Positions 48,314 to 60,067 of a stretch of DNA of 64,000 nt are shown here, in pieces; position 1 is the stretch's first letter; every line of letters starts with the position of its first letter. The notes under the pieces are model-generated. The model was not told where the DNA came from. It ran no database searches and was given only the letters and a program-made list of their open reading frames with translations. The translations under genes and the position numbers were made by a program. Source of the stretch: Ornithinimicrobium sediminis (GTDB taxonomy: Bacteria > Actinomycetota > Actinomycetes > Actinomycetales > Dermatophilaceae); assembly GCF_021272345.1 (NCBI RefSeq), contig NZ_JAJSDQ010000002.1, positions 620,001 to 684,000 on the forward strand, read 5' to 3'.

Positions 48314-49609
48314 ATGAGCCCGGTCCAGACCACCGAGATCGACCCCGCCGTCGTCGCCGGCGTCCATGAGGTCGCCCGTCGTGCGCGGGTCGCTGCCCGC
48401 GCCCTGGCGCTGCTGACCCGTGCCGAGAAGGACGCGGCGCTCCTGGCGATGGCCGACGCGGTCGACGCCGCCACCGAACGGGTGGTGTCCGCCAACCAGG
48501 AGGACGTGCAGCGCGGTCGGGAGAGCGGCATGCCCGCCAACCTCCAGGACCGTCTGACCTTCGACGCGCCCCGGGTGCACGCCGTGGCCGACGCGCTGCG
48601 CCAGGTCGCCGGTCTGCCCGACCCCGTCGGCGAGGTCGTGCGGGGGTCCACGCTGGCCAACGGGCTACAGCTCCGGCAGGTCCGGGTGCCCATGGGGGTG
48701 GTCGGCATGATCTACGAGGCGCGGCCCAACGTCACCGTCGACGCCGCGGGTCTGGGGCTGAAGTCCGGCAACGCCGTCATCCTGCGGGGCGGCTCGGCAG
48801 CCGGGTCGACCAACGCCGCCCTGGTGGCCGTGCTGCGCGAGGCGCTCTCCGGCTGCGGCCTGCCCGCCGACGCCGTCAACCTGCTCAGCGAGGGCGGCCG
48901 CGACGCCGGTCGGGCTCTGATGACGGCGCGCGGCCTCGTCGACCTGGTCATCCCGCGCGGGGGTGCCGACCTGATCCGGACCGTGGTCATGGAGTCCACC
49001 GTGCCGGTCATCGAGACAGGCACCGGCAACTGTCACGTCTACGTCGACGCAGGGGCGGACCCGGACATGGCGGTCGACCTCGTCCTCAACTCCAAGACCC
49101 ACCGCACGTCGGTGTGCAACGCCGCCGAGTCTCTGCTGGTGCACGCCGGCATCGCCGAGCAGGTGCTGCCGGAGATCATGCGGCGCTTCGCCGAGGCAGG
49201 GGTGACCGTCCACGGGGACCACGCCATGGGGCGCTACGCACAGGAGGCCGGCACGCCATACGTCCCGGTCACCGCGGAGGACGACGACACCGAGTTCCTC
49301 AGCCTGGACATCAGCGCCCGGGTGGTGCCCGACCTCGACGCCGCGTTGGCTCATGTGCAGGAGCACACCTCGGGCCACACCGAGGCGATCGTCACCGGTG
49401 ACCGCGCTGCCGCACGCCGCTGGGTCGCCGAGGTGGACGCTGCGGCGGTGCTGGTGAACGCCTCCACCCGGTTCACCGACGGGGGCGAGTTCGGCTTCGG
49501 CGCCGAGATCGGGATCTCCACCCAGAAGCTGCACGCACGAGGACCCATGGCGCTGCCGGAGCTGACCACGACCAAGTGGGTCGTGGAGGGTGAGGGGCAG
49601 ACGCGCTGA
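48314..49609 (+). CDS. proA: Glutamate-5-semialdehyde dehydrogenase (gamma-glutamyl phosphate reductase)
   Basis: ProA (431 aa) reduces gamma-glutamyl phosphate to glutamate semialdehyde with NADPH. It has [32 protein letters not shown], and the active cysteine in [13 protein letters not shown], then [25 protein letters not shown] at the C terminus. The ATG at 48314 matches the family start and follows a GAGGAG site. It is the last of the conserved proline genes before an accessory cluster. Confidence 0.96.
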
Positions 49610-49617
49610 AGCCCGCT

Positions 49618-49623
49618 TACAGT
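49618..49623 (+). promoter_or_regulatory. Predicted -10 of a leaderless promoter (GCH II-RibD fusion)
   Basis: TACAGT ends exactly 7 bases before the ATG at 49630, without a ribosome site. It marks the left boundary of the accessory cluster. Confidence 0.5.
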
Positions 49624-49629
49624 TGGGCC

Positions 49630-51042
49630 ATGGCAGTCGATCGGACACCGTCGCACACAACGGCGCAGGTGGAGCGGGTGGTGGAGACCACGCTGCCGAC
49701 CAGGCACGGGGTCTTCCGGCTGCTCGGCTACCTCGGGCCCTCCGGCCAGGAGAGCGTGGCGCTGGTCATGGGTGACGACGATGACGACGACCCGCAGGCA
49801 CCCGTGCCCCTGGTGCGGCTGCACTCCGAGTGCCTGACCGGTGACGCGCTGGGCTCGCGCCGCTGCGACTGCGGTGAGCAGCTCGACGCCGCCCTCGGCA
49901 TCGTGGCGGGACACGGCCGGGGAGCGGTCCTCTACCTCCGGGGCCACGAGGGGCGGGGGATCGGCCTGCTGGAGAAGCTCAAGGCCTACGCGCTGCAGGA
50001 CCAGGGGCTGGACACGGTGGACGCCAACACCGAGCTGGGGCATCCACCTGACGCGCGCGACTACGGTCCCGCTGCTGCCATGCTGCACGACCTCGGGCTG
50101 GACAGCATCGTGCTGCTCTCGTCCAACCCCGCCAAGGAGCGTGCCGTCGAGGCACACGGCATCACGGTGCAGGAACGCCGCAGCCTCATCGTCCCTGACC
50201 GCGTCGAGAACGCGATGTACCTCGCGACCAAGCGGCTGCGCATGTCGCACGACCACCCCCAGGGTGACCTCGTGTGGGAGCAGCTGCTGGAGGGCATCGT
50301 CCCTGACGTCGTGACCGACCCGGCCGACCAGGTCCTCGTCGAGCGGTACGGCCCGGTCGTGTCGGCGGGCCCCGACCTGGTGCTGGCGCAGCTCGCGCAG
50401 AGTCTCGACGGGTTCATCGCCTCCCGCAGCGGCCACGCGGAGTACGTCTCCGGGGAGCAGGACCGTGAGCACCTGCACCGGCTGCGCGGCCTCGTGGACG
50501 CCGTGGTCGTCGGCGGAGCCACCGTGTGTGCCGACGACTGCCGGCTGACCGTGCGTGCCGTGCCGGGGCAGGACCCCGTCCGCGTCGTCCTCGACCCTCG
50601 GGGCCGCGTGCCCACGACGGCGCACGTCCTCGCCGACGGCGCCGCCCCGACCTTCTGGGTGCTCGCCGCCGGCACGCCGGCGCCGACAGGCCTGGGGGAG
50701 CACGTGGAGGTCGTGCGTATGCCGTTGCGCGAGGGCGGGTTCGACCCGGCGGAGGTCCTGCGGCTGCTGCGGAGGAGGGGTCTGCGCCGGGTGCTGGTCG
50801 AGGGTGGGGGGCGGACCGTGTCGGCCTTCCTGGACGCCGGGGTGCTGGACCGGCTCTACGTCACGACCGCGCCGATGCTCATCGGCGACGGTGTGCCGGG
50901 AATCCGTTTCGACGGGGCCGAGCGGCTCTCCGGGGCGCTGCGACCGACCGTGCGGCGCTTCCTGCTGGGGGACGACGTGTGCACCGAGCTCTGGCTGACC
51001 GACGTGGGCCACGACAGCGCTGCCCGGGCGCATCCGGCCTGA
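49630..51042 (+). CDS. GTP cyclohydrolase II fused to a RibD-type reductase domain
   Basis: The 470-aa product joins two enzymes. Residues about 12-215 are GTP cyclohydrolase II: the zinc cysteines in HSECLTGDALGSRRCDCG, GHEGRGIGLLEKLKAYALQDQG with the conserved catalytic Tyr, and DRVENAMYLATKR. Residues about 230-460 are a RibD C-terminal reductase-like domain (LAQLAQSLDGFIASRSGHAEYVSG, VVGGATVCADDCRLTVR, RVLVEGGGRTVSAFLDAG). The deaminase domain of normal bacterial RibD is absent. The predicted product is a 2,5-diamino-6-ribitylamino-pyrimidinone phosphate or a relative. It sits beside a PTPS-like and glycolipid-type gene set, not beside riboflavin genes. Confidence 0.9.
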   Translation: MAVDRTPSHTTAQVERVVETTLPTRHGVFRLLGYLGPSGQESVALVMGDDDDDDPQAPVPLVRLHSECLTGDALGSRRCDCGEQLDAALGIVAGHGRGAVLYLRGHEGRGIGLLEKLKAYALQDQGLDTVDANTELGHPPDARDYGPAAAMLHDLGLDSIVLLSSNPAKERAVEAHGITVQERRSLIVPDRVENAMYLATKRLRMSHDHPQGDLVWEQLLEGIVPDVVTDPADQVLVERYGPVVSAGPDLVLAQLAQSLDGFIASRSGHAEYVSGEQDREHLHRLRGLVDAVVVGGATVCADDCRLTVRAVPGQDPVRVVLDPRGRVPTTAHVLADGAAPTFWVLAAGTPAPTGLGEHVEVVRMPLREGGFDPAEVLRLLRRRGLRRVLVEGGGRTVSAFLDAGVLDRLYVTTAPMLIGDGVPGIRFDGAERLSGALRPTVRRFLLGDDVCTELWLTDVGHDSAARAHPA

Positions 51043-51080
51043 CAGCTGAACCGGGCCGGACAAGCGGCGCCCTGGGGTGT

Positions 51081-51980
51081 CTAGGCGTCGGCGGCGACGC
51101 CCTCACGCGGCGCGCTCAGCCGGCGCGACCGGACCACGGCCAGCAGCACCAGCGCCCCTCCCGGCAGCGAGCCGACCATGGCCAGCACGCCGTAGGTCGC
51201 CGCAGCGGTGACGCCGTCGACCATGGGCAGGCCCCAGAGCATGGCCGCGACGGCCGTGGCGCTCTCGCGGGGTCCCCACCCACCGACGTTGACCGGGATG
51301 GCCATGGCCGCCAGGCACACGGCGCCCAGAGGGAGGGCGTCGCCGATGCTCAGACCGGGCACGCTGGTGGTGCCGGCGTAGACGAAGAGGGCCATGAGCG
51401 AGCCCCACATCGCCAGCGAGGCCAGCAGCGCCCGCGCGAGCTCCCCGGGTCGCACGCGGCGTAGGCCCGGCCACAGGGCGGCCAGCAGCGCGGCGCTGCC
51501 CACGAAGGCCAGCGCCGTCACGACCGGGGTGCGGCCACCGACGGCCAGGGCGACAGCAGCACCGAGCACGGTGACGAGGGTGCCCAGCAGCCTCTCGAGA
51601 GCCACCACGGTGACCCCGGTGCGCAGCCGGGCGCCCTCCTCTGTCGGGTGCCGCAGGGCCCGGACGGCGTCACCCGCGACGCCACCGGGCAGCACCAGGT
51701 TGAGGAAGGTCGCCTCGTAGGTCAGCGAGACCGCCTCGCGGACCCGCGGGCGAGCCGCATACCCGTGGGCGATCCGTCGCCACCGGTCCGCCTGTGCGCC
51801 CACCGCCACCAGTCCCAGCAGCAGGGCGACGACGACCGCCGGGCCGTCCACGGCCCGCGCCGCACGCATGAACGGCTCGGCGCCGAAGGCAGCGACCAGG
51901 AGCGCCACGAGCAGCACCGAGACCAGCACCTGGACGACCGTCCACCCGCGATGCCGCGCGGGGCGTGCCGGCTCGCTCAC
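51081..51980 (-). CDS. Flippase-like integral membrane protein (LPG synthase transmembrane domain, PF03706 type)
   Basis: A 299-aa protein with about eight hydrophobic helices and the conserved LTYEATFLNLVLPGGVAGDAVR segment of the AglD/MprF transmembrane family, plus NVGGWGPRESATAV towards the C terminus. Members move or handle lipid-linked molecules, as in MprF. The last gene of the minus-strand operon, it starts at a GTG overlapping the methyltransferase stop (GTGA). It converges on the GCH II fusion with 38 bases between. Confidence 0.82.
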   Translation of the reverse strand: MSEPARPARHRGWTVVQVLVSVLLVALLVAAFGAEPFMRAARAVDGPAVVVALLLGLVAVGAQADRWRRIAHGYAARPRVREAVSLTYEATFLNLVLPGGVAGDAVRALRHPTEEGARLRTGVTVVALERLLGTLVTVLGAAVALAVGGRTPVVTALAFVGSAALLAALWPGLRRVRPGELARALLASLAMWGSLMALFVYAGTTSVPGLSIGDALPLGAVCLAAMAIPVNVGGWGPRESATAVAAMLWGLPMVDGVTAAATYGVLAMVGSLPGGALVLLAVVRSRRLSAPREGVAADA

Positions 51981-52846
51981 GACGGGCTCCCAGGCACGGC
52001 CAGGCCGTCCACGTGGTCCACGACAGCGCTCAGCGCGTGGTCGTCGAGCTGCCCGGAGCGGTCTCGCCACCAGCCCTCGATCCGTCGGGTGCTCTCGGGG
52101 TCGCCGCCGACGACCTCCAGGGCGGCGTCGACGCGCTCGGCGAGCCAGCGGCGCAGCAGCGCCTCGTGGCCGGGCCCCAGCTCCCAGGGGGTCGCCGCCT
52201 CGGTGACCCGCCAGCCGGCGGCTGCAAAGGCCTGCGCGGCCACCTGCCACCCGTCCGGGCCGGCGAGGGGCTCTGCCATGGCCTCGAGGCGACGACGCTG
52301 GTGCGCGTTGAAGGCGCGGACCAGCGTCGCGTCGTCGCGGTGCTCGGGCGTGACGAGGAAGGACCCGGTGACGGTGAGGGAGAACAGCGCGGCCTCCGCT
52401 CCTGCCACGACGTCGGCCACGCACCGGACGACCTGGCCCGGTGTGAGCAGGTCCAGCAGGGCCGAACAGGTCACCACCCTAGGACGCGCCCGGTCGGCCA
52501 GCACCCGGGGCAGGTCGTCCACGCCGCCGACCACCCGTTCGGTGGCGCGCAGGGCCTCGTGCGCGGGCAGGTCGGCTGCGGTGAGCAGGTCGCTGTCGTG
52601 GTCGACCAGGACCCACCGCTGGGCGTCGGCCCCGGCCCGGGCCAGCCGCGGCACCAGCCAGGCGGGGTTGGCCCCGGTGCCTGCGCCCAGGTCGACGAGG
52701 CTCAGCTCGCCGCTCGTGCCCACCTGCCGTGCCAGGTCGCGGACGAGGGGGAGTGCCGCCTCGCGCGCCGCCGTGTCGGCTGACCGTCGGGCGGCCAGCC
52801 AGTCCCCGGCGATCCTGCGGGCCCCGCCGGTCGGCGTCGTGCTCAT
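51977..52846 (-). CDS. Class I SAM-dependent methyltransferase
   Basis: The 289-aa product has the SAM motif I LVDLGAGTGANPAWL, an acidic residue at the end of strand two (WVLVDHD), and VVTCSALLDLLTP at motif IV. The substrate is unknown; the operon context suggests a small molecule or lipid-linked intermediate. The ATG overlaps the stop of the glycosyltransferase gene (ATGA) and its own stop overlaps the flippase start. Confidence 0.82.
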   Translation of the reverse strand: MSTTPTGGARRIAGDWLAARRSADTAAREAALPLVRDLARQVGTSGELSLVDLGAGTGANPAWLVPRLARAGADAQRWVLVDHDSDLLTAADLPAHEALRATERVVGGVDDLPRVLADRARPRVVTCSALLDLLTPGQVVRCVADVVAGAEAALFSLTVTGSFLVTPEHRDDATLVRAFNAHQRRRLEAMAEPLAGPDGWQVAAQAFAAAGWRVTEAATPWELGPGHEALLRRWLAERVDAALEVVGGDPESTRRIEGWWRDRSGQLDDHALSAVVDHVDGLAVPGSPS

Positions 52847-53886
52847 CGGTGCTCCTGGCTCAGGTGCGTGTGCACCGTGTGGGCGGTGTCGGCCCACGTG
52901 GGCAGCTGTCGACCGCGGCTACGTGCCCGGGTGCTCCAGTGGCGGCGCAGCGCGGTGTCTTCGAGCCAACGGCGCAGGGTGGCCGCCCATTCCTGCGGCA
53001 GCTGCGGGTCCAGGGCCGCCCCGGCGGGGTCGTCGCCGTCCGTCCCCACCAGGGTCTGCGCGGCCGCCGTGCCCGCGGAGACGAAGGCCGGTATGCCGTG
53101 GGACAGGGCCTCGGCCACGACCATCGCGTAGGTCTCGCTCGTCGAGGGCAGGAGCAGCAGGTCGGCAGCGTCCCAGGCGCGCTCCATCAACGTGCCGGTC
53201 GCCGGCCCGTCCATCCGCACCCGCCCGGCGAGGTGGCCCGCCTCGATCCCGGCGCGCAGGCTCGGACCGGTGCCCCGGTCCGGTCCGGTGCCCACCCAGT
53301 GGGCGGTCCAGGAGAGGTCCTGCACCGCGGTGAGGGCCTGCAGGAGCAGCACGTGGTTCTTGCGCACGGTGTAGGCCGCCGGGGTGAACAGCCGGGGCGG
53401 CTCGCTGCCTCGGGACGGCGGGGACGGGTCGGTGCCGGGCTCGGCGACCAGGAGGGGCAGGTCACCGTAGCGCCGGCGCACGTCCCTCTCGGCCCATCCG
53501 CTGGTGACGACCACACCCGTGGCGGCGTGCAGGGCGGCGCCCTCGGAGCGGGCCAGCCGGGGCGCCTCGGCTGACGCTGCGTCGGCCGGCAGCGGCAGGT
53601 GGACCAGCAGCCAGACGGCGGCGTGCGCCGAGACCCGGGCGACGGCCTCCGGCGCGGCACACCCGATGATGCCGTCCACGAGGAGCGGGCGGTCCCCGGC
53701 GTGTGCGTGCAGCACCTGTTCGAGCTGGGCGAGGTCGGCGGCATCCGGGTGCGGCCAGGCCCCGGCCACCGGCACCGGCTCGGTGCCCCACTCCCGGGCC
53801 AGGCGGGTGTTGTAGACCGTGCCGCCGCTGGGGCCCGGCAGGTCGGCGGGGGACAGGACCAGGGGCGGGCGGTCAGTCGGGGGCAT
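52843..53886 (-). CDS. Glycosyltransferase, GT4-like
   Basis: The 347-aa product has a GT-B C-terminal half with the usual donor-binding helix (STSETYAMVVAEALSHGIPAF, an E-x7-E pattern) and an N-terminal glycine-rich loop (LPGPSGGTVYNTRLA). It should transfer a sugar from a nucleotide sugar to an acceptor produced by the cluster. The start at 53886 (MPPTDRPPLVLSPADL) overlaps the end of the PTPS-like gene by 14 bases; an upstream in-frame ATG would lie deeper in that gene. Confidence 0.8.
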   Translation of the reverse strand: MPPTDRPPLVLSPADLPGPSGGTVYNTRLAREWGTEPVPVAGAWPHPDAADLAQLEQVLHAHAGDRPLLVDGIIGCAAPEAVARVSAHAAVWLLVHLPLPADAASAEAPRLARSEGAALHAATGVVVTSGWAERDVRRRYGDLPLLVAEPGTDPSPPSRGSEPPRLFTPAAYTVRKNHVLLLQALTAVQDLSWTAHWVGTGPDRGTGPSLRAGIEAGHLAGRVRMDGPATGTLMERAWDAADLLLLPSTSETYAMVVAEALSHGIPAFVSAGTAAAQTLVGTDGDDPAGAALDPQLPQEWAATLRRWLEDTALRRHWSTRARSRGRQLPTWADTAHTVHTHLSQEHR

Positions 53887-54277
53887 CGGCGACGGCCACC
53901 TCGTAGGTCGCCCAGGCGTCGGGGTGCTCACGCAAGGTGACCTGGACGCGCTCGATGCCGTGCGCGGGGTCGCTGCTGCGCATCCGCTCCACCACGCGCA
54001 GCGCCACGTGACGTGCCAGCACCTCGGTCGTGGTCAGCTGCCCCACCATGTCGGGGTGCTCGTCGAGGTTGCGGTAGCTCAGCGCGCCCAGCACGGCGTC
54101 GAGATGGCCCTGGGCGGCGCCGATGTCGAGGACGACCCCGTGCTCGTCGAGCTCGGGACGGCTGAACGTGGTCTCGGCGACGTAGGTGGCTCCGTGCAGG
54201 CCCTGCGCGGGTCCGAAGAAGGGGTCGGGGAGGCTGTGGGCGATCATCATGTGGCCACGGACGGTGAGGCTGAACAC
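53873..54277 (-). CDS. 6-pyruvoyl-tetrahydropterin synthase/QueD-like protein with altered active site
   Basis: The 134-aa product aligns by eye with the T-fold PTPS/QueD family: FSLTVRGHMMIAHSL at the N terminus supplies the first zinc His, GLHGATYVAE replaces the usual HGH motif, VVLDIGAAQGHLD matches the conserved Asp strand, and NLDEHPD plus a late Glu (ATYE) match the catalytic pair region. The catalytic Cys before HGH is missing (GPAQG in its place) and the third zinc His is Ala. The GTG start has AAGGAG upstream. This is a divergent subfamily, so canonical pterin or carboxypterin synthesis is unlikely. Confidence 0.8.
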   Translation of the reverse strand: MFSLTVRGHMMIAHSLPDPFFGPAQGLHGATYVAETTFSRPELDEHGVVLDIGAAQGHLDAVLGALSYRNLDEHPDMVGQLTTTEVLARHVALRVVERMRSSDPAHGIERVQVTLREHPDAWATYEVAVADAPD

Positions 54278-54288
54278 AGAGGTCTCCT

Positions 54289-55299
54289 TCAGGTGTAGTC
54301 GACGACGGTGCAGAGCCCGGCGGGCCCCGGCCGTGCCAGCCGGTCGAGGGTCTGAGGCAGCTCCTCGAAGGAGCAGGAGCCGGTGAGGAAGACGTCGTAC
54401 ACGGGGTCGGCGAGCTCGGCGAGCGCGAGGGCCAGGCGGTCCTGGGTGCTGCGCCGGGCCCGGCGCGAGGGGGAGACCGCGCCCACCTGGCTGGCCCGGA
54501 TCGTCAGGCGGCGGGCATGGAAGGCGCCGCCCAGCGGCACCCGCGGCGCCGTGGCCCCGAACCACGAGACCTCGACCAGCGTGCCCTCGAAGCCCAGGGC
54601 GTCCAGCCCGGTCGCCAGACCTGCCTCGGTGGCCGAACAGTGCACGACCAGGTCCAGGTCGCCAGGAATGTCCTCGGGACGGACCAGGGGGACGCCCAGG
54701 GCCCCTGCCAGCTCGGCACGACCGGGGTCCGGGTCGACCAGGACCAGCTCGCTCAGGGGATGGTCGCGCAGCAGGGCCGCCACGGACGCGCCCACCATGC
54801 CCGCCCCGACGACCGCGACCCGGTCGGCCCAGCGCGGGGCGGCGTCCCACACGGTGTTGACCGCGGTCTCCACCGTGCCGGCGAGCACGGCCCGGGCCGA
54901 GGGGACGTCATCGGGCACCGGGACCAGCGCCGAGACGGGCACGACATAGCGGTCCTGGTGCGGGTGCAGACAGAAGACCCGGCGGCCCACCCACGAGGGG
55001 GCGCCCTCCTCGACGACGCCGACCGAGAGGTAGCCGTACTTCACCGGGCCCGGGAGGTCGCCCTCCTGGAAGGGAGCCCGCATCGCCGCGGCGACCTCGG
55101 GAGGCACCTCGCCGCGATGGACCAGGGTCTCGCTGCCGCGGCTCACCCCGCTGTGCAGCGTGCGCACGCTCGCCTCGCCCGGCCCCGGGGCGGGGAGGTC
55201 GGCGGTGCGGATCTCGCCCGCGCCGGGCGCGACGGTCCAGTAGGCACGGCAGGTGCGGGCCTGGTCAGGGGCCTCCGGGGCGTCGTCGGGGGATGGCAT
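54289..55299 (-). CDS. Zinc-binding-type alcohol dehydrogenase (MDR) family protein
   Basis: The 336-aa product has an MDR fold: an N-terminal GroES-like region (VRTLHSGVSRGSETLVHRGEVP), VKYGYLSVGVVEEG, and a nucleotide-binding fold VAVVGAGMVGASVAALL with Asp-Pro-Asp at the end of strand two. The GSETLV pattern resembles the subfamily without the structural zinc loop and often without catalytic zinc ligands, so redox chemistry is likely but zinc use is doubtful. First gene of the five-gene minus operon. The ATG lies 9 bases after TATGCT on the minus strand. Confidence 0.82.
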   Translation of the reverse strand: MPSPDDAPEAPDQARTCRAYWTVAPGAGEIRTADLPAPGPGEASVRTLHSGVSRGSETLVHRGEVPPEVAAAMRAPFQEGDLPGPVKYGYLSVGVVEEGAPSWVGRRVFCLHPHQDRYVVPVSALVPVPDDVPSARAVLAGTVETAVNTVWDAAPRWADRVAVVGAGMVGASVAALLRDHPLSELVLVDPDPGRAELAGALGVPLVRPEDIPGDLDLVVHCSATEAGLATGLDALGFEGTLVEVSWFGATAPRVPLGGAFHARRLTIRASQVGAVSPSRRARRSTQDRLALALAELADPVYDVFLTGSCSFEELPQTLDRLARPGPAGLCTVVDYT

Positions 55300-55307
55300 C
55301 ACCCACC

Positions 55308-55338
55308 AGCATACGAAGGGCTCTGCGCTCCGTAGGGT
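55308..55338. promoter_or_regulatory. Compact bidirectional promoter
   Basis: On the minus strand TATGCT (55313-55308) ends 9 bases before the dehydrogenase ATG. On the plus strand TAGGGT (55333-55338) ends 7 bases before the ATG of the CDP-alcohol phosphatidyltransferase at 55345. Only 45 bases separate the two start codons, so shared control is likely. Confidence 0.5.
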
Positions 55339-55344
55339 GTGCCC

Positions 55345-56064
55345 ATGTCTCCGGCCGTGCCCCCCCTGCGCATGGGGGCGCAGGGGGCTGCCGCGCTGGT
55401 GCTCACGGTCCTGGCCTGTGTGCTCATCCTCGGGCAGGGCTCCCCGCGGCCCTCGGGGCCCGGCGCAGTCGCGGCCGTGGCGGCGGGCACGGCCTTCCTG
55501 CTGGTCTTCCTGGCAGGGCTGTCCCGTCGGCGGCCGCGCCGGTACGGTCCGGCGGACACGGTCACCCTGGTGCGTGCAGGTCTGGCCTCCGTCTGCACGT
55601 GCTGGATGGTGCTCACGCTGCAGGGAGCTCTCCCGGCGCAGTCCTGGTGGCTGCTCGGCATCAGCGTGACCGCGCTGGTGCTGGACGGGGTCGACGGGGC
55701 GATCGCGCGTCGGACCGCGTCCTCGAGCGGTGCAGGTGGGCGGCTCGACGCGGAGACCGACGCCGCCCTGATCCTGGTCCTGTCGGTCGTCGCGGCGCAG
55801 GTCGTCGGCTGGTGGGTCCTGCTGAGCGGCCTGATGCGCTACCTGTTCCTCCTGGGCCAGTGGCTGCGACCGCGCTGGCGCCGTCCGCTGCCCTACAGCC
55901 AGGCCCGTCGGACGGTCGCCGCGACGCAAGGCGGGATCCTGGCGGGGATCACCGGGCCGGTCGTGCCCTGGTGGCTGGCGGCGCTGGCCGCTGCCGTGGG
56001 ACTGGGGCTACTCCTGTGGTCCTTCTCCCGGGACGTGCTCGTCCTGGAGGCCCAGGGACGCTGA
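55345..56064 (+). CDS. CDP-alcohol phosphatidyltransferase family protein
   Basis: A 239-aa membrane protein with the family signature DGVDGAIARR followed by GGRLDAETDAAL (D-x2-D-G-x2-A-R-x8-G-x3-D-x3-D). It should join an alcohol to a CDP-activated group, normally diacylglycerol. About six hydrophobic helices are present. The start is leaderless-like (ATG 7 bases after TAGGGT). Its last 57 bases overlap, on the opposite strand, the end of the GT2 gene. The alcohol acceptor is unknown; a product of the neighbouring pyrimidine chemistry is one possibility. Confidence 0.85.
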   Translation: MSPAVPPLRMGAQGAAALVLTVLACVLILGQGSPRPSGPGAVAAVAAGTAFLLVFLAGLSRRRPRRYGPADTVTLVRAGLASVCTCWMVLTLQGALPAQSWWLLGISVTALVLDGVDGAIARRTASSSGAGGRLDAETDAALILVLSVVAAQVVGWWVLLSGLMRYLFLLGQWLRPRWRRPLPYSQARRTVAATQGGILAGITGPVVPWWLAALAAAVGLGLLLWSFSRDVLVLEAQGR

Positions 56065-56982
56065 GTCGTGGGCGATGTAGTAGGTCGGGCGTCCCTGCAG
56101 GGTGGCGTAGATGCGCCCGACGTACTCTCCGAGCACCCCCAGGCAGAGCAGCTGCACGGCCCCGACGGCCGCGACGACGACCACGGTGGAGGTCCAGCCG
56201 GCCACGGTGAACCCTGCGACCTTGGCCGCGACGGCATACGCGAGCAGCAGCAGCGCGCCGACGAAGCCTCCGAGACCGAACCACGTGGCCAGGCGCAGCG
56301 GGGCCAGCGAGAAGCCGGTGAAGCCGTCGACCGACAGGCGCAGCATCGTGCCGAGGGGGTACTTGCTGGTGCCTGCCGCCCGGGCGTCGCGGACGTAGCC
56401 CACCGAGGCCGACGGGAAGCCGAGGGAGGGCACCACGAGCCGCAGCACCCGGTGCGCCTCCGGCAAGGCGTTGACCGCGTCGACCGTCGCCCTCGACATC
56501 ATCCTGAAGTCGCCCGCGTCGTCGGGGGCGTCCCGTGCGCCCGCGGCGCGCATCACGCCGTAGAAGGCGCGCGCGGTGGAGCGCTTGAACAGCGAGTCCG
56601 ACGAACGGTCGGTCCGCACGCCGTAGACGACGTCGACACCCTGCGACCGGGCGGCCTGCAGCATCGGCACGATCACCTCGGGTGGGTCCTGCAGGTCGGC
56701 GTCGAGGGTGACGACCCAGTCACCCCGCGCGCAGGCCAGACCGGCGGAGATGGCGGCCTGGTGGCCGGCGTTGGCCCGCAGCCGGACGACCCGCAGCTGC
56801 GGCCACTCCCGCCGGTGCCGCTGCAGCAGCACGGGGGTCTGGTCGCGGCTGCCGTCGTCGACGGCCACCACCTCGTAGGTGACGTCGAGGCCGTCGAGCA
56901 CACGCCGCAGGCGCGCGACCAGCAGGGGCAGCACCTCGGCCTCGTCGTACATGGGCACGACGACGGACAGGTGCACGGACAT
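56008..56982 (-). CDS. GT2 glycosyltransferase with C-terminal membrane helices (DPM1/GtrB/ArnC-like)
   Basis: The 324-aa product has a GT-A domain with VVVPMYDEAEVLPLL, VAVDDGSRDQT, TLDADLQDPPE (DxD) and GDFRMMSR, followed by two hydrophobic helices (LGGFVGALLLLAYAVAA and STVVVVAAVGAVQLLCLG) and LGEYVGRIYATLQGRP. Such enzymes transfer a sugar from a nucleotide to polyprenyl phosphate in the membrane. Minus-strand TACAGT ends 8 bases before its ATG. It overlaps the phosphatidyltransferase gene at its 3' end and is divergent from the small membrane protein gene. Confidence 0.88.
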   Translation of the reverse strand: MSVHLSVVVPMYDEAEVLPLLVARLRRVLDGLDVTYEVVAVDDGSRDQTPVLLQRHRREWPQLRVVRLRANAGHQAAISAGLACARGDWVVTLDADLQDPPEVIVPMLQAARSQGVDVVYGVRTDRSSDSLFKRSTARAFYGVMRAAGARDAPDDAGDFRMMSRATVDAVNALPEAHRVLRLVVPSLGFPSASVGYVRDARAAGTSKYPLGTMLRLSVDGFTGFSLAPLRLATWFGLGGFVGALLLLAYAVAAKVAGFTVAGWTSTVVVVAAVGAVQLLCLGVLGEYVGRIYATLQGRPTYYIAHDSASLGLQDEHVPGEGPQE

Positions 56983-56989
56983 GCCCACC

Positions 56990-57017
56990 ACTGTAGGCGG
57001 CGGACGACGGGTAAGGT
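56990..57017. promoter_or_regulatory. Divergent leaderless promoters
   Basis: The minus-strand TACAGT (56995-56990) serves the GT2 gene; the plus-strand TAAGGT (57012-57017) ends 7 bases before the ATG at 57024. Neither start has a ribosome site. Confidence 0.55.
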
Positions 57018-57023
57018 GTGCCC

Positions 57024-57245
57024 ATGACGTCTGTGCTGTTCGCGGCTGCCGAGGGCGAGGCCCACCACAACGAGCTGATCTTCGACCCGATCTGGTTCGG
57101 CGTGATCGCCTTCGGGCTGCTGATGGCGCTGCTGGCGCTGCTCTGGAGCTTCCGCAACACCCTGGCGCTCGACCCGCACACCGAGCACGAGGAGACCGGC
57201 ACCGACGTGAGCGCCAGCCCCGACTCGGGACGCAGTAGCCACTGA
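57024..57245 (+). CDS. Small single-pass membrane protein
   Basis: A 73-aa protein with one hydrophobic helix ([17 protein letters not shown], residues about 26-43) and a His/Glu-rich, acidic C-terminal tail. It has no recognised domain. Similar small membrane proteins lie immediately upstream of nadD in other actinobacteria. The start is leaderless-like and the stop overlaps the nadD ATG by one base, so the gene is coupled to nadD. Confidence 0.7.
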
Positions 57246-57829
57246 TGCGCCTGGGTGTGATGGGTGGGACCTTCGATCCCATCCACCACGGCCACCTGGT
57301 GGCCGCCAGCGAGGCCGCAGCCCTGCTCGACCTGGACGAGGTGGTGTTCGTGCCCACCGGCCAGCCCTACCGCAAGGACGCCAGGACGGTGACGCCGGCC
57401 GAGCACCGCTACCTCATGACCGTCATCGCGACCGCATCCAACCCGCACTTCACGGTCAGCCGGGTCGACATCGACCGGGCGGGCCCGACCTACACGCTGG
57501 ACACGTTGCGCGACCTGCGGGCCGAGCGGCCGGACGCCGAGATGTTCTTCATCACCGGTGCCGACGCCCTGGCCCAGATCCTGTCCTGGAAGGGCGTGGA
57601 CGAGCTGTGGCGGCTCGCGCACTTCGTCGGCGTGACCCGCCCCGGTCACCACCTGTCCGACGACGGGCTGCCCGAGGACCGGGTCACCCTGCTGGAGGTG
57701 CCGGCGATGGCGATCTCATCCTCGGACTGCCGTGAGCGGCGGGCCTCCGGCCGACCGGTCTGGTACCTCGTGCCCGACGGCGTCGTCCAGTACATCGGCA
57801 AGTACGACCTCTACACCAAGGAGCACTGA
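57245..57829 (+). CDS. nadD: Nicotinate-nucleotide adenylyltransferase
   Basis: NadD (194 aa) makes nicotinic acid adenine dinucleotide from NaMN and ATP on the NAD route. It shows [22 protein letters not shown] with the (H/T)xGH nucleotidyltransferase motif, [10 protein letters not shown], and the C-terminal [14 protein letters not shown], which matches ISSTxIR. Its stop is directly followed by the rsfS GTG. Conserved proA-nadD-rsfS order is interrupted here by the accessory cluster. Confidence 0.96.
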
Positions 57830-58246: not shown

Positions 58247-58857
58247 GCCGCCGGCTCGTCGTCTGGCGCCACGGGGAGACCGACCACAACGCGGGCGGCG
58301 TCTACCAGGGACAGCTCGACACGCACCTGTCCTCACGGGGGCACGAGCAGGCGCGGCGCGCCGCGGCGGTCCTGGCCGGTCATGCCCCGGACCGGATCGT
58401 GGCCAGTGACCTGGCACGTGCCATGGACACCGCCGCAGCCCTGGCTGCTGCGACCGGGCTGGCCGTCGACCACGACCCCCGGCTGCGGGAGATCGACGTC
58501 GGCTCCTGGGCCGGTCGCAGCCACACCGACATCGTCGAGGCCTACCCCGAGGACACTGCCGCCATCGCCCGGGGGCACGACGTGGTGCGGGGTGAGCACG
58601 GTGAGAGCGTCGAGCACGTCGCCCGGCGCACCGCCGCGGCCGCAGCCGACATCACCGCGGCGATGGGCCCGGACGACCTGGTGGTCGTCGCGACCCACGG
58701 GATGGCCGGCCGCACCATGGTGGCCGGGCTGCTCGGCTGGACCCAGCGTGACGCGTGGCTGTGCCTGGTCGGTCTGCGCAACTGTCACTGGGCCGAGCTG
58801 GAGGAGCAGTCGACCGGCTGGCGCCTGGTCAGCTGGAACGCCTCCGCCACGCACTGA
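58243..58857 (+). CDS. Histidine phosphatase family protein
   Basis: A 204-aa protein with the LVVWRHGETDHNAGG phosphohistidine motif, LREIDVGSWAG, and the second His in VVATHGMAGR. It may be a phosphoglycerate mutase-like phosphatase; the substrate cannot be told. It is the fourth gene of the nadD unit and overlaps the photolyase-family gene on the other strand by 29 bases at the 3' end. The same phosphatase follows rsfS in many actinobacteria. Confidence 0.92.
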   Translation: MSRRLVVWRHGETDHNAGGVYQGQLDTHLSSRGHEQARRAAAVLAGHAPDRIVASDLARAMDTAAALAAATGLAVDHDPRLREIDVGSWAGRSHTDIVEAYPEDTAAIARGHDVVRGEHGESVEHVARRTAAAAADITAAMGPDDLVVVATHGMAGRTMVAGLLGWTQRDAWLCLVGLRNCHWAELEEQSTGWRLVSWNASATH

Positions 58858-60067
58858 ACGAGGTCACCGGGCCGCCGTGCGGTCTGACCAGCCACGGCCA
58901 AGGGTGCAGCGCGGCCACGTCGAGACGCTCGAGGCTGCGTCGGAAGCCCGGCACGGGCGCGAACGTCACGGCCGGACGGCGGTCGGTCATCGCCTCGACC
59001 GGGGAGCCGAGCAGCACCTGCAGCTCGCGTCGCGACGCCAGGTCGGCGAGCGTCTCGGCGAGGAAGACCAGGCGCTTGCCGGACAGGCGCAGCCGCGTGA
59101 GCAGCGGCTCGTCGAAGACGAAGGTGACCGGGAGCCGCGGGTGGGCCGTGAGGGCAGGGTCGGCGTCGCCCAGTGACTCCGCCGTCAGCCAGACCACGCC
59201 GGGCCTGCCGGCGCCGGTGGGCCGGTCGGGTCCCGCGGTCTCCGACGACGCGGGGTCCGTGCGCAGCAGGGGAGCGGGCGGTGCTGCGGCGAGAGGGCGT
59301 TCGGGCGGCCGGTCCTCGACCGGACAGGCGCTCGCCAGCGCGCAGGAGGCGCACAGCCCGGGGGCCCGTGTGCGGACGTTCCACCGCGAGAAGCCGTACG
59401 GTCGGCCGGTCCCGGCCCCCACGGTCCACTGCCAGCCCAGGCGGTTGGCGGCACGCGAGCCGTCGAGCAGGTGCCGGAAGAAGTGGTCCTCCCCGTCACG
59501 CCACCCCCACTCCCCGCGCACGGACCAGTGCGACGCGAGCCACAGCCGGGTCTGGTTGGTCACCCACCCGTCCTCGAGGAGCTCCTGCGAGGCGAGGTCC
59601 AGGCAGGCCATCCGCGGGTCCCACACCGCGTCCGGCGGCGGAGCGGGCACCGTCCGCTCGGGCACGGCATACCGCAGGGACCGGCCGTTCCTGGTGCCGA
59701 GCCGGGCGTAGGCGTGCCGGGCGAACTCCTGCCACAGGAGCTCGTCACGGAACCGTCGCACGTCCTCCGGTGGCCCTTGCGCCACGTGCTCCCACACCGT
59801 CCGCAGGGGGAGCAGGCCGTGCCTGACCCAGGGGGACAGTGCGCTCGCCCCGCGACGCCCGACCGGCCAGACCTCGTTGCGCCGACGTGCATAGCCCGTG
59901 ACGTCGAAGGCGGCCAGAGCCGTGTCGGCCGCCTGCTGGCCTCCCCGGAACCGGGGGCTGGGCCGGATCCTCCCGGCCGGTTCGGCGGTGAGGTGGCCGA
60001 GATGGTCGGCGACCCAGGCGCGTGCCGCCTCGGGCCCGGGTCCGGGCGTCGGCAGCGGCTCAGCCAC
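58829..60067 (-). CDS. Cryptochrome/photolyase-family protein with permuted domain order
   Basis: The 412-aa protein carries the FAD domain first: SALSPWVRHGLLPLRTVWEHV, FRDELLWQEFARHAY, DPRMACLDLASQELLEDGWVTNQTRL, WRDGEDHFFRHLLDG and the AANRLGWQW pocket, residues about 40-285. A linker then leads to a C-terminal region (from about 290) that resembles the photolyase N-terminal alpha/beta domain: GVVWLTAESLGDADPAL, VTFVFDEPLL, LSGKRLVFLAETLADL and GGPVTSFSAWRR. In ordinary photolyases this domain comes first. The GTG start overlaps the stop of the upstream zinc-finger gene by 8 bases. Confidence 0.85.
   Translation of the reverse strand: MAEPLPTPGPGPEAARAWVADHLGHLTAEPAGRIRPSPRFRGGQQAADTALAAFDVTGYARRRNEVWPVGRRGASALSPWVRHGLLPLRTVWEHVAQGPPEDVRRFRDELLWQEFARHAYARLGTRNGRSLRYAVPERTVPAPPPDAVWDPRMACLDLASQELLEDGWVTNQTRLWLASHWSVRGEWGWRDGEDHFFRHLLDGSRAANRLGWQWTVGAGTGRPYGFSRWNVRTRAPGLCASCALASACPVEDRPPERPLAAAPPAPLLRTDPASSETAGPDRPTGAGRPGVVWLTAESLGDADPALTAHPRLPVTFVFDEPLLTRLRLSGKRLVFLAETLADLASRRELQVLLGSPVEAMTDRRPAVTFAPVPGFRRSLERLDVAALHPWPWLVRPHGGPVTSFSAWRRRSS

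Follow-up and report, generated by a model that had tools for sequence, protein, structure and literature searches.

A conserved seven-gene module in Ornithinimicrobium sediminis combining GTP cyclohydrolase-type entry enzymes with glycosyl-, methyl- and phosphatidyltransferase families

Genes at the locus

The stretch of DNA analysed here, referred to as the window, comprises 64,000 nucleotides of contig NZ_JAJSDQ010000002.1 from Ornithinimicrobium sediminis. Between proA and nadD it carries eight genes, which a preliminary description made from the sequence had assigned to named families and treated as one block. Pfam, NCBIfam and a codon-usage gene caller written for this analysis recovered the same eight genes and families. 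The linked block stops at position 56064 and holds seven genes; it is a conserved module, found in part across two domains (bacteria and haloarchaea), and the eighth gene, a GT2 glycosyltransferase, lies outside it. On balance it seems probable that the seven genes form a dedicated module, apart from riboflavin, folate and queuosine synthesis, which would turn GTP into a glycosylated, methylated and probably membrane-attached compound. The genes are as follows.

49630..51042, plus strand: GTP cyclohydrolase II (GCHII)-RibD_C reductase fusion, 470 amino acids; Pfam GCHII 2e-59, RibD_C 3e-39
51081..51980, minus strand: flippase-like protein of the LPG_synthase_TM family; Pfam 2e-22, GTG start
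51977..52846, minus strand: class I S-adenosylmethionine (SAM)-dependent methyltransferase, assigned via orthologues
52843..53886, minus strand: GT4 glycosyltransferase; Pfam 2e-13, best solved profile matches 6kih (Tll1590) and 3c4q/3c48
53873..54277, minus strand: PTPS-like T-fold protein, orthologue of SCO6650 (3d7j); Pfam PTPS 4.5e-21, GTG start with AGGAGA upstream
54289..55302, minus strand: medium-chain dehydrogenase/reductase (MDR)-type dehydrogenase, BchC-like, without invariant cysteines; Pfam and NCBIfam matches below cut-off
55345..56064, plus strand: CDP-alcohol phosphatidyltransferase; Pfam CDP-OH_P_transf 3e-12, motif D-x2-DG-x2-AR-x8-G-x3-D-x3-D intact
56008..56982, minus strand: GT2 polyprenyl-type glycosyltransferase, outside the module and part of the proA-nadD neighbourhood; Pfam GT2 2e-31

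Within the minus-strand operon the flippase-like and methyltransferase genes overlap by 4 bases, the methyltransferase and GT4 genes by 4, and the GT4 and PTPS-like genes by 14. The overlaps of 4-14 bases reported earlier are thus found for these four genes and fail for the dehydrogenase gene, which is separated from the PTPS-like gene by an 11-base gap. The 45 bases between the ATG codons of the dehydrogenase and CDP-alcohol transferase genes agree with the distance given for a proposed bidirectional promoter; counted between the outer GTG starts, the gap is 36. The promoter itself rests on this spacing; a scan of 49500-57300 for sigma-70-like motifs found none, as did scans of shuffled sequence, so it is uninformative in such GC-rich DNA.

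Conservation of gene linkage

Linkage was examined at 150 loci centred on homologues of the PTPS-like protein, with the presence of each family scored by tblastn using several queries. Set 1 holds the best 80 of at least 553 confirmed relatives in named genomes. Set 2 holds 60 loci from 393 genomes drawn evenly from the class, 63 of which have a match at 1e-35, and 10 loci from relatives. The even-draw loci cover 59 of the 63 matching genomes, one of them twice, and omit the window genome, G027, G028 and G029. Among the 18 relatives with a PTPS-like match, G001 and G020 are counted in set 1 (L024, L023), and G011, G012, G017, G021 and G037 (contig end) are uncounted. One genome is common to both sets (L038 = L151). 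Some loci are clipped by contig ends or short flanks, and all counts of absence are therefore upper bounds.

Table 1. Loci with each family in reach of the PTPS-like gene (set 1, n=80; set 2, n=70; both sets where summed)
MDR-type dehydrogenase: 79; 70; 149/150
GT4 glycosyltransferase: 77; 70; 147/150
Methyltransferase: 26; 58; 84/150
Flippase-like protein: 29; 59; 88/150
CDP-alcohol phosphatidyltransferase: 26; 59; 85/150
GCHII: 28; 58; 86/150
RibD_C reductase: 30; 29
Creatininase family: 7; 37
Sulfatase-like family C20: 11; 17

The neighbourhood search that the preliminary description had proposed thus returned conserved linkage across the 150 loci for seven families, GT2 excepted (Table 1). 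The dehydrogenase, PTPS-like and GT4 genes, referred to below as the core, are contiguous and in the same direction in 143/150 loci. The dehydrogenase, GT4, methyltransferase, flippase-like, CDP-alcohol transferase and GCHII families are all in reach at 65/150 loci (20/80 in set 1 and 45/70 in set 2). The sulfatase-like family lies near the CDP-alcohol transferase in 28/150 loci and in five plasmids of Rhizobiaceae; one such protein (L094:6242-8053) matches Pfam Sulfatase slightly below the cut-off. At one locus (L103, genome G002) nine called frames lie between the fusion and the core.

The GT2 protein behaves as a bystander because the proA-GT2-nadD neighbourhood exists without the seven genes. 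Of 38 relatives, 26 match it at 1e-30; ten of these are genomes of the same genus without a PTPS-like match (G005, G006, G008, G010, G013, G015, G018, G019, G022 and G023). The order in G022 is proA, GT2, a 71-amino-acid frame and nadD, with no other gene in between, and the window corresponds to this arrangement with the seven genes inserted between proA and GT2. Other genes are interposed between proA and GT2 in G013 and G006 (L114-L116). GT2 is in reach of the PTPS-like gene at 1/80 loci of set 1 and 3/70 of set 2, two of these three being merely 27-39% identical. Its membership, and with it the description of one eight-gene block, was rejected; the block stands for the other seven genes. 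A frame of 70 amino acids at 57033-57245, between GT2 and nadD, has no Pfam match, and frames of 71-90 amino acids occupy the same place in L114-L116. Further along the window, 58829-60067 is a candidate photolyase-like gene by eye.

Taxonomic spread

The 63 matches among 393 class genomes, with Streptomyces among the hosts, confirm the wide actinobacterial spread that had been suggested. Of 346 genomes drawn evenly from the phylum, 16 matched at 4.6e-48 or stronger, and the following match was at 6e-29, leaving a clear gap. The range is wider than had been described and also takes in proteobacteria and Haloarcula plasmids. In PLSDB, 24 records match the PTPS-like protein, and 18 of these were examined by tblastn and annotation. 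Five plasmid stretches of Rhizobiaceae (L226, L232-L235) carry the sulfatase-like, flippase-like, CDP-alcohol transferase, dehydrogenase, PTPS-like, GT4, methyltransferase and RibD_C families together with a GCHII that has the Tyr residue discussed below. Palleronia (L231) has a Tyr-containing GCHII, the dehydrogenase, PTPS-like protein, methyltransferase and RibD_C, with GT4 some kb away. Thiodictyon of the Gammaproteobacteria (L219) has the core, methyltransferase, RibD_C and CDP-alcohol transferase and no GCHII match; Methylosinus (L221) has the core, methyltransferase and RibD_C; SC52 (L225) has the dehydrogenase, PTPS-like protein, methyltransferase and RibD_C; and Microbacterium (L228) has every family except GCHII. 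In the proteobacterial stretches L219, L226, L232 and L233 a gene annotated as cytochrome b adjoins the RibD-family gene; in L219, genes for SLC23-type permeases lie upstream.

Streptomyces fungicidicus (L227) carries the complete creatininase form, with Met in GCHII and the order CDP-alcohol transferase, dehydrogenase, PTPS-like, GT4, methyltransferase, flippase-like, creatininase, GCHII. For S. coelicolor, the suggested link between SCO6655 and a PTPS homologue was found to be correct: SCO6650 is the solved PTPS-like protein (PDB 3d7j), and SCO6655 is listed as a GCHII. The window thus shares a PTPS-like orthologue and a GCHII family member with S. coelicolor, and differs from the Streptomyces loci seen in having the GCHII Tyr and a fused reductase where these have Met and a creatininase-family gene.

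Entry enzymes and the first intermediate

Tyr120 of the window GCHII aligns with Y105 of E. coli GCHII (2bz0). The domain matches NCBIfam NF001591 above cut-off and TIGR00505 slightly below it (203.2 vs 205.85). GCHII could be scored for this position at 86 loci: 41 carry Tyr, and the other 45 carry Met, Leu, His or Gln. RibD_C is present at 40/41 Tyr loci (exception L078) and a creatininase-family gene at 0/41, whereas a creatininase-family gene is present at 44/45 non-Tyr loci (exception L162) and RibD_C at 8. All six alphaproteobacterial plasmid stretches with a GCHII combine Tyr with RibD_C and have no creatininase. GCHII sampled elsewhere (29 rows, 28 genes) has Tyr throughout; among these are the window gene itself, a fusion from another part of the L080 genome, copies in riboflavin operons and the second GCHII found in Arthrobacter kin. 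In the one copy of the latter that was scanned (L150:9858-11690, an Arthrobacter relative) an acyl-CoA-dehydrogenase-like domain is fused to the GCHII, with a RibD_C-like protein upstream and biotin-type genes nearby, and similar copies occur in other genomes. GCHII and RibD_C are fused in the window and are separate adjacent genes in Micromonospora.

In studies by Spoonamore and Bandarian from 2006 and 2008, SCO6655 reportedly has Met at the Tyr site and stops at the formylamino intermediate. The creatininase-family protein of the module (Pfam match 1.2e-64) may be the partner deformylase of such non-Tyr cyclohydrolases, by analogy with BrbF, a creatininase-annotated enzyme that is a proven deformylase of the formylpyrimidine intermediate (PMC9478397). 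A third arrangement is seen in three Haloarcula plasmids, where a gene annotated as GTP cyclohydrolase IIa lies between the CDP-alcohol transferase and dehydrogenase genes. Pfam supports this annotation in the one module checked (L224, GCH_III 2e-82), and the three plasmids, being close relatives, are counted as one event. In a fourth Haloarcula module, that of H. sinaiiensis, a creatininase-family gene some 5 kb away from the dehydrogenase takes the place of GTP cyclohydrolase III (GCH III). GCH III is unrelated to GCHII and yields the same formylamino compound (PMC7288161). The exchange of GCHII with RibD_C, GCHII with creatininase, and GCH III as entry enzymes leading to one diaminopyrimidine is the best chemical evidence for the module, whose first intermediate is well argued.

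The PTPS-like protein

The best solved match of the PTPS-like profile is SCO6650 (3d7j, 1.4e-51), followed by canonical PTPS and QueD at 5e-8 and weaker; the QueD profile scores 26.6, far below its cut-off of 89.25. SCO6650 is not known to have PTPS activity. The module protein belongs to the same Pfam family as the 6-pyruvoyl- and 6-carboxytetrahydropterin synthases, and we take the roles of its residues (zinc ligands, catalytic Asp-His pair, ring-anchoring Glu) to be those of that family. The first two zinc His are present in 148 and 149 loci; the third has given way to Ala (146) or Val (3) in all 149 aligned sequences. At the site of the catalytic His, 146 of the 150 have Tyr, 1 has Phe, 1 has Met and 2 keep His, and the Asp position holds Asp in 5/150. 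Thus neither the three zinc His nor the catalytic pair of PTPS and QueD is kept as a set, while the ring-binding Glu113 is retained in 149/149 aligned. Other near-absolute positions are N66 (150/150), D68 (149/150) and E81 (150/150). The module also differs from PTPS and QueD systems in its gene content; no match to the queuosine-cluster proteins QueE, QueC and GTP cyclohydrolase I (GCH I), to CofG or CofH of F420 clusters, or to MftA or MftC of mycofactocin clusters was found among the eight window proteins in Pfam and NCBIfam.

Other enzymes of the module

A catalytic zinc in the MDR protein is unlikely because no Cys is invariant among 12 aligned orthologues (two incomplete); a single near-invariant Cys lies near the C-terminus. 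The assignment draws on weak Pfam and BchC/HpnZ-type NCBIfam matches, all below cut-off. The window methyltransferase has no Pfam match of its own, and its Streptomyces counterpart barely reaches the Methyltransf_25 cut-off. The CDP-alcohol transferase motif is invariant in 11/11 aligned. The GT4 profile matches Tll1590 (6kih) at 5.6e-33, 3c48 at 3e-28 and then D-inositol 3-phosphate glycosyltransferase; GT4 enzymes of this sort take phosphorylated polyol or sugar acceptors. A GT4-type enzyme acting on a pterin is known in the cyanobacterial tetrahydrobiopterin glucosyltransferase (5ze7), matched by the window GT4 profile at 1.7e-7, no nearer than many other GT4 enzymes; its pathway begins with GCH I and is not known to include lipid genes. 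The MftF profile matches the GT2 protein far below cut-off.

Relation to riboflavin synthesis

The module starts as riboflavin synthesis does, with GCHII or GCH III, creatininase-family and RibD-type reductase proteins (RibA and RibD; archaeal GCH III and ArfB; BrbF). Its seven genes differ in having no deaminase, RibB, RibH or RibE, and in adding MDR, PTPS-like, GT4, methyltransferase, phosphatidyltransferase and flippase-like genes. Among the window cluster proteins no deaminase match was found in Pfam or NCBIfam, and none of the eight matches RibD deaminase, RibB, RibE or RibH. The window genome has a separate operon RibD-RibE-RibB-RibH (G000:C9:27683-30456, L102), whose RibB of 210 amino acids has no GCHII half. 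The fusion probably also feeds riboflavin synthesis, as suggested by its being the one PF00925 match in the genome together with this RibB. The RibB frames of G003 and G020 measure 222 and 219 amino acids, and each of these genomes has one GCHII, in the cluster. Another GCHII lies beside lumazine synthase in 10/18 relatives with a PTPS-like match. The cluster is not confined to genomes with lumazine synthase: one closed genome (G002) has the fusion and the core and no PF00885 lumazine synthase match. The block as a displaced riboflavin operon was rejected on the grounds of G002 and the separate operon. Two further observations concern riboflavin genes: in L106 (G029) a single frame of 841 amino acids combines matches of RibD_C, RibE and RibB type and has no GCHII, and G006, G010, G015, G018 and G023, of the same genus, have neither GCHII nor lumazine synthase matches and are possible riboflavin auxotrophs.

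Proposed pathway and alternative readings

The best reading of the product, drawn from protein families, is a 2-amino-4-oxo-pyrimidine or pterin glycoside that would be methylated and often membrane-anchored. In the first step, for which the argument is strong, the GCHII domain would open GTP to 2,5-diamino-6-ribosylamino-4(3H)-pyrimidinone 5'-phosphate. The fused RibD_C domain, judging from its family, would then reduce the ribosyl to a ribityl group ahead of deamination, and the 2-amino group would be kept. The third step is the least secure: the MDR dehydrogenase may oxidise a side-chain hydroxyl, and the PTPS-like protein may hold the 2-amino-4-oxo ring via its Glu and help to close a ring of pterin type or remodel one. 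The keto product of an oxidation at C2' would be the intermediate that GCH I forms by Amadori rearrangement. A sugar would be added by GT4 and a methyl group by the SAM enzyme; the CDP-alcohol transferase would add a phosphatidyl-type group, and the LPG_synthase_TM protein would carry the product across the membrane or retain it there. We infer the pterin ring closure, the target of glycosylation and the lipid anchor.

Several observations weigh against this reading. As many as 48/150 loci (44/80 and 4/70), mostly Arthrobacter and kin, are without methyltransferase, flippase-like, CDP-alcohol transferase, GCHII, RibD_C and creatininase genes, and the lipid steps are therefore not universal. 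The earlier combination of a pyrimidine or pterin start, glycosylation and membrane-lipid families holds as one conserved unit and falls short in its lipid half. A Streptomyces plasmid (L222) has the PTPS-like gene and none of the other families, L236 has the core alone, and Neorhizobium (L220) has the core and methyltransferase alone. In three Haloarcula modules the nearest GT4 stands apart, several kb off, and tblastn found neither RibD_C nor the flippase-like family in any Haloarcula stretch. The Haloarcula PTPS homologues may have a somewhat different job since they keep HxH and are 31% identical. RibD_C is missing from 36/44 creatininase-type loci, and the cluster-type reductase was unmatched at 1e-20 in 18/18 whole genomes (16 creatininase-type, G701 and G523) in a search that had no positive control. 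The reduction step is therefore not universal, and a general scheme of reductase then dehydrogenase is weakened. Finally, the Fisher p of 7e-24 for the association between Tyr and creatininase ignores kinship, and the GCHII tree, made with the columns around the Tyr residue removed, needs 1-2 Tyr changes. The association thus appears to be a clade-level pattern rather than many independent events, and enzyme logic and the GCH III swap are for these reasons preferred as support.

One alternative, which we consider unlikely, is that two pathways travel together: a pyrimidine or pterin glycoside route (GCHII, reductase, dehydrogenase, PTPS-like protein, GT4) and a separate membrane lipid route (methyltransferase, flippase-like protein, CDP-alcohol transferase). 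The 48 loci just mentioned speak for it, as does a CDP-alcohol transferase of this family away from the core in 6/14 core-only genomes (Arthrobacter kin, Sinomonas). The remaining genes of these genomes do not form one second locus, as all six transferase stretches have no other family within about 9 kb. All six genomes also have the second, Micromonospora-like GCHII, which argues for a joint pathway, yet G041 and G050 have that GCHII without the transferase. Two pathways fit poorly with the methyltransferase and flippase-like genes lying inside the same tight operon with 4-base overlaps, and with all families occurring together in 65/150 loci and five Rhizobiaceae plasmids.

It is more improbable that the PTPS-like protein is a non-enzymatic carrier or sensor of pterins or pyrimidines and that the product is a ribityl- or ribosyl-aminopyrimidine glycolipid, never a pterin. 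The loss of the third zinc His (Ala or Val in 149 aligned) and of the catalytic His in 148/150 would suit such a role; the near-absolute N66, D68, E81 and E113 and the fixed position between dehydrogenase and GT4 suggest catalysis, and the Haloarcula versions keep HxH. Least probable is a salvage or storage route for flavin supply that diverts or protects riboflavin intermediates without a separate end product: it would suit the window genome, G003 and G020, where the cluster GCHII is the sole one found and RibB has no GCHII half, and is opposed by G002, by the second GCHII beside lumazine synthase in 10/18 relatives, by the use of GCH III in Haloarcula, and by the glycosyl- and phosphatidyltransferases, for which we know of no role in riboflavin synthesis.

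Expression in Streptomyces coelicolor

SCO6652 should be the methyltransferase by gene order, with SCO6650 and SCO6655 as anchors and L227 as the matching arrangement; by order, SCO6649 would likewise be the dehydrogenase and SCO6651 the GT4 enzyme. Relative to first mycelium at 16 h, the log2 value of SCO6652 in multinucleated mycelium is 0.8 at 24 h, 4.3 at 48 h and 4.1 at 72 h (PMC3610822). A second source lists SCO6655 at -0.61 under riboflavin metabolism, with expression opposite to predicted flux, among genes most of which are up in stationary phase (PMC2853524). Both are compatible with a product of late development.

Significance

Full-text searches of open-licence papers, and hence a weak negative, found no publication describing the cluster or its product. 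Because the first intermediate is named by the entry-enzyme swap, the product should be traceable by feeding and mass spectrometry. Two findings that had stood as orphans, the structure of SCO6650 and the unusual cyclohydrolase SCO6655, gain a common context in the module. A broader possibility, put forward tentatively and with more doubt than belief, is an undescribed class of membrane-anchored pterin (or diaminopyrimidine) glycolipids, derived from GTP by a second, GCH I-free pterin route in bacteria and haloarchaea and perhaps spread via large plasmids. If a redox-active ring is indeed tied to the membrane in this way, it would represent a new cofactor, pigment, light sensor or protective lipid.

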